64,000 nucleotides of DNA. Source: Heliocybe sulcata. Taxonomy: Eukaryota > Basidiomycota > Agaricomycetes > Gloeophyllales > Gloeophyllaceae. Each line of letters opens with the position of its first letter. Position 1 is the first letter of the stretch. The notes under the pieces were generated by a model. The model was given only the letters and a program-made list of their open reading frames with translations. It ran no database searches and was not told the origin of the DNA. The translations under genes were made by a program, and so were the position numbers. Shown here piece by piece: positions 4,040 through 56,690 of the stretch. The DNA lies in contig ML213504.1 of assembly GCA_004369045.1 (NCBI GenBank), positions 97,653 to 161,652 on the forward strand. The letters are read 5' to 3'.

Positions 4040-5041
4040 TACCGTCGGCGGATTGGACGCGGTTCGTTTTGAGTTGTCGCGCGCGCCAACTGGTGCTATC
4101 GCTTTTCGATATTCAATGTTGTCGCACGGATCCTTCCTACCAGTCTGGCTGTGTACCAACTAGCTGTCTATCGTACTTGCACTGCGACATTTGGTGCCCT
4201 GCATGGTGGTTAACACCGCATCTGGAGTACCCGCGTGTGGATTCGCGCCTGGCTGCCCTTGTCCGACGCTCATGCAGCTGCTCGCCGTGCCATGTAAAAG
4301 GGCAACTCCATGATCTGTATATTGTGTACCTGTTTGCTTCAACTCGCAGCAACAAGAACGAACACATGCCTCCATCATGTTTAAGATGTGTCACACTAAT
4401 TGTGGCACAAGGATCACTGTCTGAGACAACCACCATACTGACACTGCTAGCACTCCCTCCTCCACAGTCTCGACGATTAAGCAAGCTCACGGCTCAACTA
4501 TGGTCAATAAAATCGGGATAAATGGTACTGTCAGGGCCACCCGATCACGTCCTTCGTGCAAGCCTCCTGCAATTTCAATACACAAAGGAGCACCCGGCTA
4601 TAAGACTTAGTACTTGAGATCTAGGAGCCTGGACAGTACAAACTATTGGCACTAGTGTACCTGAGGCCTGACCGACCGTCCACGTTACACTTAAGATTAA
4701 TCCCATCCGAGAGCCTTTCGGTGGCCGAAGATACAACTCCGGTCGGAGGTTCAAAATTGGCGGGCATTGCCGTCACGCAGCCAACACCTCTGAAACAAAC
4801 AAAACTCATTTTTAATAAGGAAGGACCGGGCGCTCAATTTTGTAGGCAGATATGTTCTAATTCTATGTAGGTAACTATCTACATTGTTCTCAGACCTTAG
4901 AATCCCATCCGAAAGCAATTTCAGCCACGAAAGATCCAATTGCCGTCGGAACTTCAAAGTCAGCGGGCATTGCCGCCACACAGCCAACGCGCATGCGCGA
5001 ATGCAAAACGAAAACGAACCGCGTCCAATCCGCCGACGGTA
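4040..5041. repeat. 31-nt perfect inverted repeat, arms 4040-4070 and 5011-5041
   Basis: Bases 4040-4070 are the exact reverse complement of 5011-5041. The core of the right arm reads GCGTCCAATCCGCCGACGG. The arms enclose about 940 bp of noncoding DNA. Similar GC-rich words continue imperfectly on both outer sides. I found no clear target-site duplication. It could be a non-autonomous transposon relic or two copies of one dispersed repeat in opposite orientation. Confidence 0.7.
4699..4988 (+). repeat. Imperfect direct repeat, copies 4699-4785 and 4901-4988
   Basis: Two copies of about 87 bp start with AATCCCATCCGA or AATCCCATCCGAA and end with CAGCCAAC. They are 202-203 bp apart and diverged at scattered bases. 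Both contain a shared GCGGGCATTGCCG core. They lie inside the inverted-repeat pair and directly upstream of the ATR gene, so they may duplicate an upstream control element. Confidence 0.65.
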
Positions 5042-5195: not shown

Positions 5196-13697
<8,502 letters not shown>

Positions 13698-24480: not shown

Positions 24481-26589
24481 ATGCGCGGGGGTTGGCAGCT
24501 CAGACGCGTCCTCCCTCGTACTCGATTGTTCTCTACCATAGGCGAAGGTGGTACGGATCGTAGATGGCCTGGTTGGGAGGTGGTAGTCGGTCTTGAGGTG
24601 CATGCTCAGATCAAGTCGCGCTCTAAATTATTCTCTGGTACGCACCATATTTTGTAGTTTTAACAGCCATATTGAGCTTGAAGAAATGCATTATTCAAGA
24701 TAGCTTGACATCGGATCCTAGTGAATCACACAATACCTGCGTTTCCCCCTATGATGCTGCGTTCCCCGGCACACTACCTGTATGTTGTCCCTGGCTATGC
24801 AAATGTGCCCGGAGAATGATCTTGAACATGATAGAAACTGAACTCGAAATGCGTCGACCTCACTCTACGGACAGCGATTGCTCTGAATTCTCAAATACAG
24901 CGCCGTTCAGCCTTCGACAGGAAACATTACTTCTACGCCGACATACCAGCCGGTTACCAAATAACCCAGCATTATGGTGAGCGGGACAGTGTGACTCCGC
25001 TGATAGTTCACTTACACTGCTGGAGCAGCGCCGGTCGCGATGGGGGGCCATCTCGATTTGGAGACTGGTCGCTTAGTCCGTATCAAGCAGATACAGATAG
25101 AACAGGTATCTGATGTTCAGCGCTATGGCGGCTGTGGGCCTTATTAACACGCACCAGGACACTGGGAAATCGACATTTGATGCGCGCCGAAGAGTGTCAA
25201 TGATCGATCTGAATAGAGCTGGGACGGGCCTGATGGAGATTGTCTCGGAACCTGATATGCGGTCCGTCGAGTTCTCCATTTTACCTAGACGACAGCTAAT
25301 ATGCTACAGCTCACCCGAGGAGGCAGGCGTGTATCTACGTACACTACAGTCGATCTTGCGTTCTGTGGGCTCCAGTGATGGCAACATGGAGCAGGTGAGC
25401 GGCTCTGACTCTGAGGTTGGATCCAGGAGTGCTGCAGAAACTGAAATCCTCCGTAGGGGTCTCTCCGCTGCGATGTGAATGTCTCGGTAAACCGCCCCGG
25501 TGAACCTTCAGGTACACGCTGTGAAGTCAAGAACCTAAACAGCGTGAAATTTATGCAAGTGGCAATCGGTATGTATGAGCTTCATCGCTTTCGCTTTGAA
25601 TTTTGATGAACAACCCAGCTTGCGAGGTATTCCGCCAAATTGAGCTCCTTGAGAAAGGGGAAGCTGTTCAGCAAGAGACACGCGGGTTCGATGAAGCTGG
25701 GGCAAGAACTTTCTCATTGCGGAGCAAAGAGGATGCCCCAGACTACCGCTACATGCCAGATCCGAACTTACCGCTGCTATTACTGGACCAAGTGAGTGCT
25801 ATCCAAGAGCACTCTATTGACTTGATAAACCTTGTCTATCTAGTCATACGTAGACCGAATACGTTCCACGATGCCCGAATTACCAGGTGAAACCCGAGCT
25901 CGCCTTTTGAAGCAAGGCCTCACAGTGCGGGACGTCGATGTTCTGACATCAGTCGACGCCGGTCGCGAAGTCGGTTTCGATGGTCAGCTCGGTGAGGGCG
26001 CAGTGGTGTACTTTGACGCTGTGGCGATTGGCAGAAATCCGAAGATTGTCGTGAATTGGTGAGGAGGGAAGCGGCACTGTCTCTTCTCATCTGACGACTT
26101 TGTAGGATTACGCAAGATTTACTCGGGCAGTTGGCGGCGCGGAACCTGACCTTCAAAGAGAATCCTATATCGACCCAGCAACTAGGCGACCTCGTTGATA
26201 TCGTCCAGAACGGTAGCATCACAGGTGCGCTGCGCGGTCTTTCTCACCCTGATATGTGGTATGATTAAATGCATTGTCATGCAGGGACGTCAGCGAAGAC
26301 CCTTCTGCGTCATATGCTCGACCAGCGTAGTGCGGCTCTTCCATCCGAACTCGCCCGAGAGATGTCGTTATTCGCGCTCCCTGCAGACGGTGATAGCGGA
26401 TCGTCTGAGCTGGAACAGTGGTGTCGAGATGCCATGGCGGCTGTACCTGCAGAAACGGCTGCAGCGAAGAAGGGACATTCTGGTGTGATCAACAGACTTG
26501 TTGGGAGGGTGATGAAGATGAGTCGCGGTAGGGCTAATGCACTCAAGGCCAAAGAGGTCCTGCAGAGTATGTTACGGGGCCCAGACTAA
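24481..26589 (+). CDS. PET112: Mitochondrial glutamyl-tRNA(Gln) amidotransferase subunit B
   Basis: Eleven exons (24481-24637, 24700-24779, 24835-24976, 25026-25105, 25158-25261, 25310-25394, 25457-25568, 25619-25791, 25844-26058, 26106-26224, 26285-26589) give 523 residues. With GatA and GatF or GatC, GatB converts misacylated Glu-tRNA(Gln) to Gln-tRNA(Gln) in mitochondria. The Arg-rich N terminus before [18 protein letters not shown] looks like a targeting peptide. Family hallmarks are [44 protein letters not shown] and the AQPDYRY-like segment [13 protein letters not shown]. The C-terminal YqeY-type helical domain (about 420-523) ends with a long helix over the tRNA-binding region. Start 24481 is the first ATG in frame. 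Confidence 0.94.
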
Positions 26590-28095: not shown

Positions 28096-28156
28096 GGCAC
28101 CGATAGTCGATAGAGGTAGTAGGCAGTGTAGAGGTTCGTTCGGCGTGGCAGTTATA

Positions 28157-28170
28157 CTATAGGTGTGGAC
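28157..28170 (+). repeat. Left terminal inverted repeat
   Basis: CTATAGGTGTGGAC is preceded by TATA and is identical to the reverse complement of 34101-34114. It lies 61 bp upstream of the start codon of the DsbA-like gene. Confidence 0.8.
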
Positions 28171-28336
28171 ATATAGATCTATAACTGAGTTTGAAATATA
28201 GTGCGGACTTTGAGATTAGTCTCACGCCTGTGGCAACTCACGGGCATCTAAGCTCGAGCGTAAGTCCGCATTCTGCGTACTAGAGCATTGTAATTCTGCC
28301 GTACTCTGCTTTTCGATTCACGCTCGCACGCAACGC

Positions 28337-31300
28337 ATGGCCTCCGACGATGACGGGAACCCCAGCGCTCCACAACGACGGCGTCCTGGACGCCCGAAAG
28401 GATCTAAAAATGGACCGAACGCGAAAAATGTAGGTCGCCCGAGGAAGGACGGTCAGCCTCCGAAACAGCGCCAGTTCGGTGAGTGGGCCCCTTAATACAT
28501 TATCACATATGAATCCATTTACTCAACATCTAAGTAGGTCATAGGACCGCTTCTTTGGGAGAGAATTCCAGTCTTCAGCCCGAAGCCATCTCGCAAGGTA
28601 GAATTGATGCACATCACGTCTTCCTTCCGTCTACTCACGTCTTGCGATATGTTTAGACCTAACTTCCCAGCTATCAGACTCCCAGCCTACTCAGCACTCG
28701 GAGACCGAAGCTGCGCCGTCCCGTGGTGCGCCTAGTCTGGTCCCTACACCGCGAGTGTCTGAACCACCCGAATGCACGCAGCAAGCCGTTCCGCCGCCAA
28801 CACTGAGCTCGCAGCCTCATGGAGACCCGCTGCAAGAGCAAATATATAGGCCTGGCGATGGTCAATTCGAAGTGGCGGGCATGGGTGAAGGACCGAACCG
28901 GAGTGAGCTCGGGGAAGTACGGGCATTGTCCCTTCTCCCTCCAGCTTCGCTGGATCTTACAGGACTGGGTGGAAGCATGCGAGATATTGATGAACTAGAG
29001 TACGGTAAGTATTCGCGACTGCTTAAAATGCTGGATATGCTGACAGCATCATTCGGTGTCAGTAGGCCGCACCACCAGCAAAGCAGGTGAGCCAGCCACT
29101 GCGCACAGTCTGTTGTTACCTGGCGGGAGGTCGGTAGAGGCGGTCAGTGCTGCTGTAGAGGATGTGATAGGTCTGGGTAGTGGAGATGGCAGCGGTACAG
29201 ACATTTTCGGAAGTGAGGGTTGGCAGGGTGCGTGTACAGCACAGGAGAGCAAGAACGAGACACTAACTTCATCTTAGGATTTGATGACGAGGACTGGGAT
29301 GAAGATGAGGATGTAGATCATATCCTAGGCTCCGGGGGCGAAGGCGTCAATACAGAGCAGGATGAGTTTAACCCGATACCTGACGATGACGAGAGCGAGG
29401 AACCGGTGCCCCAAGCAGATGGCGACGGTGGTGCACAACCACGCACAGCGAGATCTGCAATGCCGACTTGGCTGCTGCAAGACTATGCAGATATGCGCGA
29501 GAAGCTGCAGGCCCAAATCCGACGCAACCCATCCAAGAGACCGACGTGCTACGACCACGGGACCTTCTTGGACGGCTCTCCGTATGCATTCTTCACGGCC
29601 GACCGTAAGCACCAACCCGAACCGCGAGATTTCTACAGTCCTGGTTACTTTGTATGGCTCCCGCATCTGCTTGGGCCCCGGATCCCGTGCGCAAACTGTG
29701 CGGCTGCCGGTCGTCGACAGGGAGATGGCAGTCCCATCCTTCTTCGGAGCCATGGCTTTCCCAAAGCACCACGCCGCATAGTGGACGTAGATCATTGCAT
29801 ATATGTGATCGGATACCGCTATCGCTGCGCCCACGCCCAATGCAAGAAAACATTCTCGAGCTGGAGTCCTGGAGTCCTCACTGCGCTACCCCGTGCGCTA
29901 GCATGCCAGTTTGACTTCCACCTCACATACCGTGGTGGGCTTACTGATCGCGTCGTGGCATTGATGCGATCGTGTTTCTTGCACGGGATGGGCCCGACGC
30001 CGTTCGCAAATTTGATTCGAACCCATCATATTCGTCGGTATGAGAAACTCCACGAGCAGTACCTCGAAGCTGTGCTTGCTCGATTACAGACTCCATTCAC
30101 GGCATACCTAACGAAGTTCCAGCCATTCGGCCTCTTCGATGACCGTAACGGTTATGCAGGGTTTACACCATCCCCAAACTATTTCCGCCAGTTCTATATT
30201 CAGTATATCGACTCTCATGTGCCGGAGATGGACCAGTATTCAGCGATGCTCTCTGGGAAACTACTTGTTGTTGACCACAGTCACAAGGTAAGCATGACTT
30301 TGCTACTGCTTGGTGTTTTAGGCTGAAAGTTGTGGTCTAGGTACCGAAGCACCTCGGGAAAGTCAATGGTGTGCCGGTGTTCACTGCACTGCACTCATGC
30401 ACAAATGAATATATGGAGATCCGGTCAATGGTCCTCACACCGACGAAGGCCCATAACCAGTTCATGCCCGCACTCGGTGCTATCTCACGCTTGCTGAAGA
30501 TGTACGGCCATGATCCGGTGGAGCTTGCTTTCACAGACAATGTTCGTGGCGATAAGGCTGCTCTGGAAGAAGTGATACCTTCTCTTCGAGAGGGAGTGAC
30601 TCCCGTGAAAGACTTCACGACTCTTCCGAAGCTTTCGGTCCCTTCCGATGAATGGAATGCTGTCTTGCTGTCTTCAGTATATCAGATAAACACACGCTTC
30701 AATACGATTATGGCGGACCTTGCTGCAGATGCTAAGCTTTACGTGTCTCTTGATATGGAATGGAGTGTCGACACCGCTAGCGGATTACGCGGCCGGGTCG
30801 CAGTGATCTCTGTTGCATACGACGGAGTGATATTACTTGTATGGGTGCGTCAACCTTGTCATTAAGTCTCGGAGTGAATGTTCTCATGGCGATGATAGCT
30901 TCGGTGCTGCTTGCGCAATGGGTGTCTCAACCTTCCAACCGGTCTGCTTGCATTCCTACGTGCCCCATCTGTCATCAAAGTTGGGGTCAAGATCACAGCC
31001 GACTTCAAGCACCTCTTCGCAAGCTGTGACTTTCGTGAAGGTGTTGATGACCCATTCCGAGGTGCCGTAAATCTTGGTGCCCTCGCAAAGGCACATAATC
31101 CGTCCATCAAAGCAACTATCAGCCTGGCTGATCTTGTTGCGGTGTATGTTCGGCATCATCTTCCAAAGGACGAAGCTATCCGTGTCAGCACTGATTGGGA
31201 TAATGATGAGATGAGCCATGCACAGCAGGAGTATGCTGCCCTGGATGCATATGCAGGCTGGGCTGTCTTCCAAGCTCTCGGACAGCGAGAAAGTGGTGGT

Positions 31301-33887
31301 CCTGTTACAGCAACAACACCAGGCGCTACACCTGTTACTCTCATGTCGTCGGACCGCAGCACGGCTGTTGCGCAAGGCCATATTGCTCTTGATCGCCCCA
31401 GCAAACATGATGGCATCAATGTCTCGCCGAAACGTGTCCTGATTGTAGTCACGTCAGTCCTTGTACCTGGGCATCTGGTTCCGAAGGAACTGCTCTCTTC
31501 GGGAAAAGATACACCATTCTCCGAGTTCCCAGCACCGCCATTCAAGCTTCTGTGCAAAGAACGGCACCTGCGTACCAGGGCTGCCAACGAGGCCGTGACT
31601 CGTCCGATTTCACCTCCGACTCCAGCAAGCAGTGCGGAAACTGTTTATCTTGACCCGTCCACCCTTCCAGCAGCTGAGCCAGATACTGAGAATGAACCGG
31701 ATTACCTGGAGCGAGATACTGACTGGGATCTGATGACTGAGGACCCCGGAGCTAAAGACCAGGCTGTCGAATCATCTGATCGCGACCCATCTGCTACAGT
31801 AAAAGCTGCAGCTCTTGATCCAGACGGTCTCTCTGATGCTTGGGAATCTTTATCGACCCGGGTACTTGGCGATGTGTTTCATCTCATGCATGAGTTCAAG
31901 ATATCTGTGCACCATGGACTACGCCGGCCCTTTGCCCGAGCGCTTCGAGATGCCTTGTTCATCCCAGACCCTGATGACAAGGTGATCATCGAGAGATTTC
32001 TGGAAGAGCGGCAGACGACATGGGACGCAATGCTATTGTACCATCCATGTTGGCTCTTCCGACGGGTCAAGCGGATTGTCCCACCGCCTGAGATCCTCCT
32101 ACCACGCGTACGGGATGTGCTACAGAAGTTCGGCCCGCTCAAAGATTCGACCACAGGGCAGCCATTGTTCAATGATAAAGCCTGGGATATCTGCACAAAT
32201 GTTCTGGAAAATATCCGCAGAGGATACTATTCCGATCCACCAGGTATTCAACTCTACTTTACTCGAGGTCAGGACAAGTATGGGTTAATGCAGTACAAAT
32301 GCTGCCGTGGAACCAACGCCGTCGAGGGTGGTGTCCACCAGAATGTTATCCGGTGGTTTGGCTCATTTAATGCTGCTCCTGAGTTTGCACTGCAATTACT
32401 CCGTGATTACAGGCTATATCATAATCTCAGAGTATGTCTGATTCTACTTCGCTGTTCCGCAGTCTGCAAGACTAACTTGTTTCCAGGTCGGGACACTGAA
32501 TCGCACTGGTACACCATATACCGGGTCCTATGATGTATGGACAAGAAATCGGATTTCGCTCTTGCTGGATACCACATCTAGCCGTTTCGAGTCTCTGCCA
32601 CGTAGTTTCGGACCAGGTGGCTGGGTTAATGGCAATCTCTATGCCCCATCTATGGAAGTCTTCGGAATCCTACCCATGCCTGATAGCAAGCGTCTCGAGT
32701 CTGGTATGATGCCCTATCATCACAGGTATGCAATGGAGCAAAAGATCCGGCACCGTCAGCTTGCCTTCAGGCAGAACTGCCGTGTCGCCATCCTTCCGGT
32801 TCACACCCGAAGCGAGCGCGCACTATTCCGACTTCTCATCACTGACATTCATAGCCGCTTCGGCAACGAGAAGGAGCCATCCTGGGATGCTGTTGCTGCT
32901 GAGTGGTCGAGGCATGTGGATGGCACTGCAGTATTTTACAAGGTATGTACTTCCTCTTGGTCTGTACCCCTCCAGCTGAAAGCTTTGATTCAGCTCAAAG
33001 AGCATTTGAAGAACTACTGGAAAATGTGGGGTGAGAACGTGAATGAGAAGAAGTCAATTCAAATCAACCAGGGATCCTACCAGGAAATCCAGGCCCGCCT
33101 TCGAGCAGATCGACCGAAATTGCCGAAGAGAGATGCAGCGCAGCCGACCACGCTGAGTTCGCAGGTCAGCACTGCTCCAAGTAGGACTCTGGACAGCAGC
33201 GAGGATGAACTGAACGAGTGGGAAATATCCCGCCTCCTCGGTGCTCATCATCTCAACCGGTCGGCCGTGCACTTCGAATACGGGGATCAGGGCTTACCTC
33301 CGCCACCTCCTCCTCGAGGCTCAGATATCCCGCAGAGTCCGCCTCGGGACAAGGGAAAGAAGAGAGCATGGGCGGACACTGCCATAGCTGCACCTCCGCA
33401 GGGTATCCGGGTCCAGAAACGGAAGAAGCGGGCTTGTCGCCGCTGCAGCAAGACAAACTGCAAAGGCCGCTTCAAGGGGCGGGATTGCGCACCAGTTAGT
33501 ATTATCTCATTTTACATGACATTTCGGTGCATACTCACGGCGTATCTACAGGACACAGATGACGATGAGGCAGGTAGTACCATGACTGCCGGATACTCTA
33601 CGGGAGGGGCGAGTCTCGTGGCTGGCGCGCAGGTTGCAGCCAACGCAAGCTCACCGGCGCATACGACTGTCAGGAGTATCCGCGATATGCTGATTGGTAT
33701 ACGCGCAGTTTCAAACGGTGCGCACATGATGAACGCCGAAGATGCAAGCGGAAGCGCAGGTGAGGTGATGGCAGCACGCGCAACAACTGGCGCCAGCGAC
33801 GGGAATGCAATACAGTACATAGCGACAACTGAGGGGGGCGTCGAAGAAGATACCAATGCCTCAGCAGGTCCGTCGACTGCGGCGTGA
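28337..33887 (+). CDS. Transposase with embedded 3'-5' exonuclease domain
   Basis: Ten exons (28337-28478, 28538-28597, 28657-29004, 29066-29227, 29278-30287, 30341-30844, 30899-32431, 32487-32942, 32994-33494, 33552-33887) give 1683 residues. Two AT-hook motifs (RRPGRPKGSK and VGRPRK) open the protein, then an acidic stretch. A Cys-rich region at about 365-480 (CANC, YRCAHAQCKKTF) follows. A DDE-like core has Asp570 (VVDHSHK), Asp640 (AFTDNVRGDK) and Glu1218 (RGTNAVEGGVHQ). Between the last two lies a full DEDDy exonuclease: LDMEWS (Asp712, Glu714), ITADFKHL (Asp777) and EYAALDAYA (Tyr854, Asp858). The C terminus has a basic Cys motif, KKRACRRCSKTNCKG. The catalytic reading is inference from motifs. 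Similar basidiomycete proteins are, to my memory, annotated as uncharacterised or exonuclease-domain proteins. The acceptor at 32993 could instead be at 32975, adding six residues. Confidence 0.85.
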
Positions 33888-34100
33888 GCGAGGAAGGGTC
33901 TGCATATTACGTTGCGCGAGCCATATTAGATTTAAATGTATCTCGAATAATGTACCTGGTCTTCCGTAATAGTATATGCCTACTGTGGCCCATCATGCAG
34001 CCATCCTCACCTGTAAGAAGAGACGATTCCGTGCACAGTTTCCTCCTCCTCTCTTCTCTCCTCCGGAGTTAATTATTTAATATAGTTAATATTCGGGAAA

Positions 34101-34114
34101 GTCCACACCTATAG
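34101..34114 (-). repeat. Right terminal inverted repeat
   Basis: GTCCACACCTATAG is followed by TATA. It lies 169 bp upstream of the CSN12 start codon and 214 bp after the transposase stop codon. Confidence 0.8.
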
Positions 34115-34282
34115 TATATGAGCCCGGCGTGCCTTTCTGTGATATTATACTGATCATAAAGACCTTCCATATGGGGCAGGCTTACATCAGCTTGCACCTT
34201 GCACCAGAACCGATAACGCCACATTGACCTGATCCGCCACTTGCTGCTTACCGTTCCTCTGAGTTTATTCTATGCTGTTGGC

Positions 34283-35997
34283 ATGCCCTTGACCTTCTCA
34301 GAATACCAGGTTCAGCTGACTCAAGTCTTATCCGACGAAGATGGACCGGGCCTGGCATACTTGCTGCGTCCGACGAGCCCTCATGGAAAGGACCTGGTGA
34401 AGGAGTTCAGGAACCCAACGGTGGGCGTCCCTAGCCGTGTCTGAGTTACCGAGATTGATATCGTCTGCGAAGAAAAAATCCCTGTCTTACTATGAAGGCG
34501 GTATCGAGAGTCCCTGGGACGAAATCGCGATCCAGTATGTTCTGGTGGTCCACCATGTGGCGAAGAAACGAGCGGCGGAGGCGTTCAAGGAACATTCGCA
34601 TCTGGTATCGTAAGTAGACAGACTCGACCATGTATACTAGTCGGATTCAATTCATGCTGTGGTATCCTAGATTATTCTTTAGGTTCTTTACGAGCAATAG
34701 CGGGTGGACTCTGCCCGCGCTGTTCGCCATTCTGCGTGACTTGCGCGACCTTGCATTTGATGTGAAGCGGCACTAGGTGGTGGCTTCTATGAGATACTGA
34801 CCATAGGTATCAGGCAGATTTACAAACGAATAACCAGAAGAGCGACTGTATGGAGGAAGCTGCTCGGATTATTTCCAAAGCGTTCGGAAACTGTGTGACT
34901 GACAGGTCAGTCAAATACGTGTTTCACGCTGGATTGCGTTATTGAATAAGCTGCCTAGGACCTCTCCTCCAGCAGAGTCGCGTAAATGGGGAGTCTACTA
35001 CGTGGTCGGACTGGTGTTGAAGACGTATTTCCGAGTGGGTTCCATCGAGTTCTTCGAAAGGCTGACCTTACAGACCCGCAGGTGAAACGGATATCACTAG
35101 CCAAACCCATTTTACGGGCTCTGCAAGCAAACACTGATATTCCGCCGCTGTCCTCGTATCCGCGATCGCATCAGGTATGTTGCACCTCATTCCAATGAAG
35201 CCCTGCTCACATTATCATAGGTTACCTATCGATACTATGTCGGAATGCTACATTTTCTGAACGAGGATTATGCTCAGGTGCTGCGTCTTCGATCGAACTC
35301 AATTGCACTGATGCTAAAGCCCTCCAGGTAGGCTGAGAAAGAGCTCACACTAGCGTTCTACCACTGCCACATAGATGCTCACAAGAATCAAGAGTAAGGC
35401 AGATGTCTATTTTAAGCTGCAAGCTGTGAAGAGCACGAGGCTAACCGAACGACAGACGAATTTCGACTTACCTCATCCCCTTGAGAATTTTGAAGGGTCA
35501 TCTGCCGTCCAAGGACTTGATGGGACGGTTTCCGTCCCTGGATGCCCTCTACGCTCCGTTTATTCAGGCGATCCGGACTGGAGATATCAAGTCGTACGAC
35601 GAGGCACTGGATAAATGGGAACGCAGGCTAACCGAGCTGAACCTTTATCTGAACCTGGAAAAGGCAAGAGAACTATGCATAAGAGGGCTGTTCCGAAGAG
35701 TGTAAGTACTTGCCACTGCTGTCATGCCGCTGGTCTGTGGGAGCTGACTGCTATGTCGTTGCCGGTAGCTGGGTGGCGTCGCAGAAGGGGACAAGGATAC
35801 CGATCTCGATGTTCCACTGCTCTTTGCAGATATCGGGCATAGATGTGCCACAGGAGGAGGCTGAGTGCTTGGTAGCGAACATGATATACAAAGGCTTCAT
35901 GCGCGGGTATATTTCTCATGAGAAGCAGATGGTTGTACTGGCGAGTGCGAATACCTTCCCGAGACTTGCAGATAGGCCTACAGCCTTTGCTCTGTAG
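34283..35997 (+). CDS. CSN12: PCI-domain protein of the Csn12/Thp1 (PCID2) family
   Basis: Ten exons (34283-34420, 34473-34609, 34683-34761, 34814-34905, 34959-35034, 35082-35174, 35221-35277, 35332-35393, 35456-35701, 35769-35997) give 402 residues. Helical repeats such as YYVVGLVLKTYFRVKRISLA and VTYRYYVGMLHFLNEDYAQA lead to a PCI winged-helix end (RIPISMFHCSLQ, ECLVANMIYKGFMRGYISHE). Relatives act in the TREX-2 mRNA-export complex (Thp1/PCID2) or with the COP9 signalosome and splicing factors (Csn12). The spliced length and the LIPLRILKGHLPSK motif fit this family. The first ATG follows the transposon end by about 170 bp, so its promoter was probably affected by the insertion. Confidence 0.9.
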
Positions 35998-56564: not shown

Positions 56565-56588
56565 GTCCCCTTCGGGGTGACATACGAA

Positions 56589-56619
<31 letters not shown>

Positions 56620-56690
56620 GGCCCCTGCACAAGGATGACACGCTTACCCAGAGTGGCAGCTCTACGGAGCTCAATATTTATGCTCTTTTT
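56565..56690 (+). ncRNA. U6 spliceosomal RNA (3' part atypical)
   Basis: A GTCCCCTTCGGGG 5' stem-loop is followed by ACATACG and ACAGAGAAGATTAGCATGG, then CCCCTGCACAAGGATGACAC. These are the invariant ACAGAGA box, the U4-pairing AGC region and the internal stem-loop. The match is unmistakable through 56643. After that the sequence departs from the usual U6 3' tail and runs 42 nt to a T5 stretch (56686-56690) that could stop RNA polymerase III. GTTCAGGTC at about 56730 is one base off a B-box. No TATA box was recognised upstream. It could be the real gene with a long tail, a gene with an intron, or a chimeric copy. Confidence 0.85.

Follow-up and report, generated by a model that had tools for sequence, protein, structure and literature searches.

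The window, by which we mean the whole 64-kb stretch of Heliocybe sulcata DNA that was analysed, contains a 5,958-bp element with perfect terminal inverted repeats (TIRs) around a single gene for a putative transposase (Table 1). All nine introns of this gene run from GT to AG. A mechanical splice scan found alternative sites at every intron except intron 7, and the sites of introns 3, 4 and 6 were varied with the remaining introns fixed. A single open frame of 1,663-1,677 aa was retained in 16 of these 20 combinations, and an internal stop appeared in the other four. Because alternative splice sites abound, the exon model given here is one possible version. Its residue numbers are 7 lower than those of an initial annotation of the same DNA, probably as a consequence of splice-site choices.

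Table 1. Coordinates of the element, its gene and other features in the 64-kb window.
Feature	Position	Strand	Description
Element	28157-34114		very probable transposon, TIRs included
Left TIR and flank	28153-28170	+	TATACTATAGGTGTGGAC; reads as TATA+CTATAGGTGTGGAC or TATA+CTATAG+GTGTGGAC
Right TIR and flank	34101-34118	-	100% complementary to the left arm
Transposase gene	28337-33887	+	10 exons, 1,676 aa, stop included
Exon 1	28337-28478	+	RRRPGRPKGSK stretch
Exon 2	28545-28597	+	
Exon 3	28671-29004	+	
Exon 4	29066-29227	+	
Exon 5	29278-30287	+	DUF6729; cysteine pairs C368/C371 and C414/C419; putative first acid D563 (LLVVDHSHK)
Exon 6	30341-30844	+	putative second acid D633 (AFTDNVRGD); start of exonuclease with D705 and E707
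Exon 7	30899-32431	+	remainder of exonuclease with D770, Y847 and D851; DxxH motif D1060-H1063; putative third acid E1211 (TNAVEGG)
Exon 8	32487-32942	+	
Exon 9	32994-33494	+	C-terminal four-cysteine motif C1546, C1549, C1554, C1563
Exon 10	33552-33887	+	
PCI-domain gene	35683-35994	+	downstream of the element; position is that of the Pfam match (E 9.3e-10)
U6 snRNA gene	56565-56681		Rfam RF00026, 89.2 bits
Second inverted-repeat element	4040-5041		1,002 bp, 31-bp perfect ends
Its longest listed open frame	4069-4521		150 aa
Its inner repeat	4699-4785 / 4901-4988		77%
ATR-type protein gene	8159-10729		UME, M-HEAT_ATR and FAT domains
GatB-like amidotransferase subunit gene	25600-26586		GatB_N and GatB_Yqey domains

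The two arms are complementary at 18 of 18 bases if the flank is included, and the gene between them is readable as ten exons, which bears out the perfect TIRs around one gene that had been noted initially. When the whole window was shuffled 200 times with dinucleotides preserved, a perfect inverted repeat of at least 18 bp with arms less than 12 kb apart arose in three of the shuffles. The probability of a chance origin is therefore small, not nil, and the length of the repeat by itself is evidence of moderate weight. The pair hugs its single gene, however, with 180 bp upstream of the ATG and 227 bp downstream of the stop, and this close bracketing gives the TIRs support beyond their length. 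A domesticated host gene beside a chance or relic inverted repeat would fit the open frame, the one copy seen (tblastn with the transposase protein against the window matched the gene itself and nothing else), the equally long repeats in the shuffles, and the frequency of the 14-bp end, which at up to three mismatches is matched six times in the window, including the element's own two ends, when 4.15 matches are expected by chance. Such a gene, however, needs no ends like the perfect 18-bp repeat that brackets this one so closely, and we consider this explanation very improbable.

Beyond the window, homologue searches returned nothing from viral contigs (queried with exons 7, 5 and 6), prokaryote contigs (exons 7 and 5) or plasmids (the exon 7 protein, and the element as DNA). 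As these collections are viral, prokaryotic and plasmid-borne, the results are uninformative on copy number in fungi. One exact match to the 18-bp end in a viral contig (L002) was taken as chance, because the 12.9 kb searched contain neither a second exact match nor a tblastn match to the transposase.

The target duplication can be read as 4 or as 6 bp, since the two flanks meet in a palindrome of 14 bp, and the one copy seen does not discriminate between these lengths. Of the two parses with symmetric ends, the first has a TIR of 14 bp and TATA (4 bp) as the duplication, and the second has the 8-bp TIR GTGTGGAC and CTATAG (6 bp); the other parses listed yield repeats of 1-2 bp, or TATA one base outside the CTATAG parse. 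The TATA flanks proposed initially are thus a fitting parse, but CTATAG also fits the palindromic junction. If the latter is true, the duplication agrees with the 6-7 bp published for the Dada superfamily (PMC3706591), and the empty site would be the 14-bp palindrome TATACTATAGTATA. P and hAT elements tend to favour 14-bp motifs for integration, with the duplication lying within the motif (PMC3706591).

With regard to the insertion site, Rfam and ARAGORN found no small RNA genes nearby in the window as it stands, ARAGORN detected no tRNA once the flanks had been joined (200 bp from each side), and self-BLAST (E 1e-3) gave no match between the window's U6 gene and the flanks. On these searches insertion into a small RNA gene was ruled out, less firmly so for an interrupted snRNA other than U6, because Rfam covered the unjoined window only. 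The two minus-strand frames tested to the left of the element had no Pfam match and the PCI-domain gene follows downstream; from this arrangement the site appears to be intergenic. The U6 gene itself lies approximately 22 kb from the element and is not the insertion site. It spans 117 bases against the 105 positions of the model, and its 3′ half looks unusual.

A Pfam search of the full protein at E up to 1 returned two domains alone, DUF6729 (aa 341-503, E 1e-13) and DNA_pol_A_exo1 (PF01612, aa 697-863, E 7.1e-8), the first above cut-off and the second above its curated cut-off. A literature search for DUF6729 by domain name found no publication. The exonuclease had its best match in a sequence search of the PDB with WRN (2e6l, E 1e-9), alongside a further WRN entry (2fbt, 6.4e-7) and EXD2 (6k17, 1.4e-4), and all five DEDDy residues (D705, E707, D770, Y847 and D851) aligned on their WRN counterparts. 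In WRN the exonuclease precedes a RecQ helicase, whereas in the element it sits inside the transposase. More precisely, it is located between D633 and a DxxH motif (D1060-H1063), which in turn falls between the exonuclease and the TNAVEGG sequence with E1211. This DxxH motif is important for classification. Neither it nor DUF6729 figured in the initial annotation, which had placed the five DEDDy residues between Asp640 and Glu1218 and had seen these two and Asp570 in transposase-like contexts; both observations hold, the three acids being D563, D633 and E1211 in our model.

Based on motif context and spacing, D563, D633 and E1211 are the predicted catalytic triad. The sole outside support for such a role would be a MULE profile over residues 579-650, which remained below threshold in Pfam (E 0.21; 12.5 bits, the cut-off being 27.6), so that by this profile the element is not assigned to MuDR/MULE. 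The presumed transposase core with the exonuclease removed matched nothing in Pfam, PDB or NCBIfam. Cysteines are arranged as C368-x2-C371-x42-C414-x4-C419 in the N-terminal part and as C1546-x2-C1549-x4-C1554-x8-C1563 in the C-terminal part, the latter being CCCC, not CCHC, and the RRRPGRPKGSK stretch of exon 1 is one that we take to be AT-hook-like. AlphaFold2 reached a mean pLDDT of 35.4 for exon 5 and 34.9 for exons 6-7 including read-through intron 6; with single-sequence input and mean values of about 35, these models are unusable for questions of fold. By analogy with other C/DxxH transposases, the exonuclease is likely to be an insert within one RNase H fold.

The initial annotation knew of no described superfamily with such a build, a claim to novelty that was overtaken in 2013, when Kojima and Jurka reported Dada elements with an exonuclease between the second D and the DxxH motif in a mushroom, Laccaria bicolor, and in a brown alga, Ectocarpus siliculosus (PMC3706591). 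The architecture of an exonuclease within a transposase is therefore already known. In that paper the Dada superfamily is defined by DDE and a DxxH past the second D together with zinc fingers towards both termini (CCCC at the N-terminus, CCHC at the C-terminus), and the role of the exonuclease is a proposal only (PMC3706591). Judged by motif and spacing, our element appears to carry D, D and E with a DxxH after the second D, and its exonuclease (697-863) lies between positions 633 and 1060. Dada-1_LB, Dada-2_LB and Dada-1_ES share with it the DDE and DxxH residues, the position of a DEDDy exonuclease, introns and a similar length (complete published Dada elements measure 4,666-10,979 bp). They also resemble it in having N- and C-terminal cysteine motifs, which are stated for all Dada but with a spacing other than that seen here (PMC3706591).

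For comparison with a single published transposase, Dada-U6_DR from zebrafish likewise has a DxxH and cysteine motifs before the first D and near the C-terminus, and its first two acids are 68 residues apart (D567, D635), as compared with 70 here (PMC3706591). The distance from D635 to E811 amounts to 176 residues, whereas it is 578 in our element, and no exonuclease is stated for Dada-U6_DR. Its N-terminal cysteines lie 135-178 residues ahead of the first D, those of our element 144-195. The spacing of both cysteine motifs differs from the published one, with C-x4-C-x34-C-x2-C in the N-terminal zinc finger of Dada-U6_DR against C-x2-C-x42-C-x4-C here, and CCHC at the C-terminus in Dada against CCCC here.

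Differences are also found in the ends and the target. Dada-U6_DR is inserted in U6 and has no TIRs, unlike our element, and in the passages of PMC3706591 drawn on here both Dada-U6 and Dada-U1 are stated to be without TIRs, compared with 14-18 bp in our element. According to the same passages, every Dada with clearly definable ends sits in a small RNA gene and has a short duplication, whereas Rfam and ARAGORN found no tRNA or snRNA gene at the site described here. The L. bicolor Dada may have the same kind of ends and targets as our element. Compared by published description, membership in the Dada superfamily is likely; the assignment is not a formal one, because the RNA-gene target was not found and the comparison is by description rather than by sequence. 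In another fungus, Marasmius oreades, a search with a Dada profile gave no multiple well-supported matches, as far as the portion of PMC8290104 used here reports.

The TIRs, which the Dada-U6 and Dada-U1 descriptions lack, and the weak MULE match would also be in line with an independent gain of an exonuclease by another C/DxxH DDE superfamily (MuDR, hAT, P or Kolobok) or by an undescribed one. Exonuclease gains do recur, because KolobokD, too, encodes one; in the part of PMC9587614 relied on here, it combines DDE and C/DxxH with a DnaQ-type exonuclease. However, that exonuclease is DEDDh and resembles exuperantia, TREX and ERI1, and the Kolobok duplication is TTAA, compared with DEDDy and TATA or CTATAG here, and Kolobok was excluded on these grounds. 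Dada, on the other hand, is published with the same placement between the second D and DxxH and with a similar spacing of the first two acids (PMC3706591). No transposase profile scored above cut-off, and this does not separate the superfamilies. An independent gain is, in our view, distinctly unlikely. DEDDy exonucleases also occur in rotifer retroelements, as described in the parts of PMC6431247 and PMC5718144 cited here. The corresponding parts of PMC12730594 mention neither Dada nor an exonuclease, and those of PMC8869645 do not mention an exonuclease.

We are fairly confident in reading the element as a DNA transposon of the cut-and-paste type, autonomous and with its frame intact, probably a recent insertion, which works like the exonuclease-bearing branch of Dada. 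That it is a real transposon with the build of the Dada elements that carry an exonuclease is very probable; any novelty is confined to its ends and its site. During transposition, the N-terminal part would bind the element ends, the D563/D633/E1211 core would cut and rejoin the DNA, and the exonuclease would trim 3′ ends laid bare by cleavage. Most plausibly, these would be the donor flanks, because strand transfer would suffer if the 3′ ends of the element itself were trimmed. An element whose frame is open and whose ends are clear would be tractable for probing what an exonuclease does inside a DDE transposase.

The element may further reveal how ends and target choice changed in one lineage within a superfamily that is target-specific. 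It is conceivable, though we lean against it, that one branch within the exonuclease-bearing Dada dropped the targeting of small RNA genes, recognises instead the 14-bp palindrome TATA-CTATAG-TATA with a 6-bp duplication within it, and gained true TIRs, with trimming by the exonuclease helping to define the ends.

A second inverted-repeat element is present in the same window. Its perfect ends start with TACCGTCGGCGG and are unlike those of the transposon, and its flanks (ACGCGTCC and CCGCGTCC) are identical at 7 of 8 bases and may represent an 8-bp duplication.
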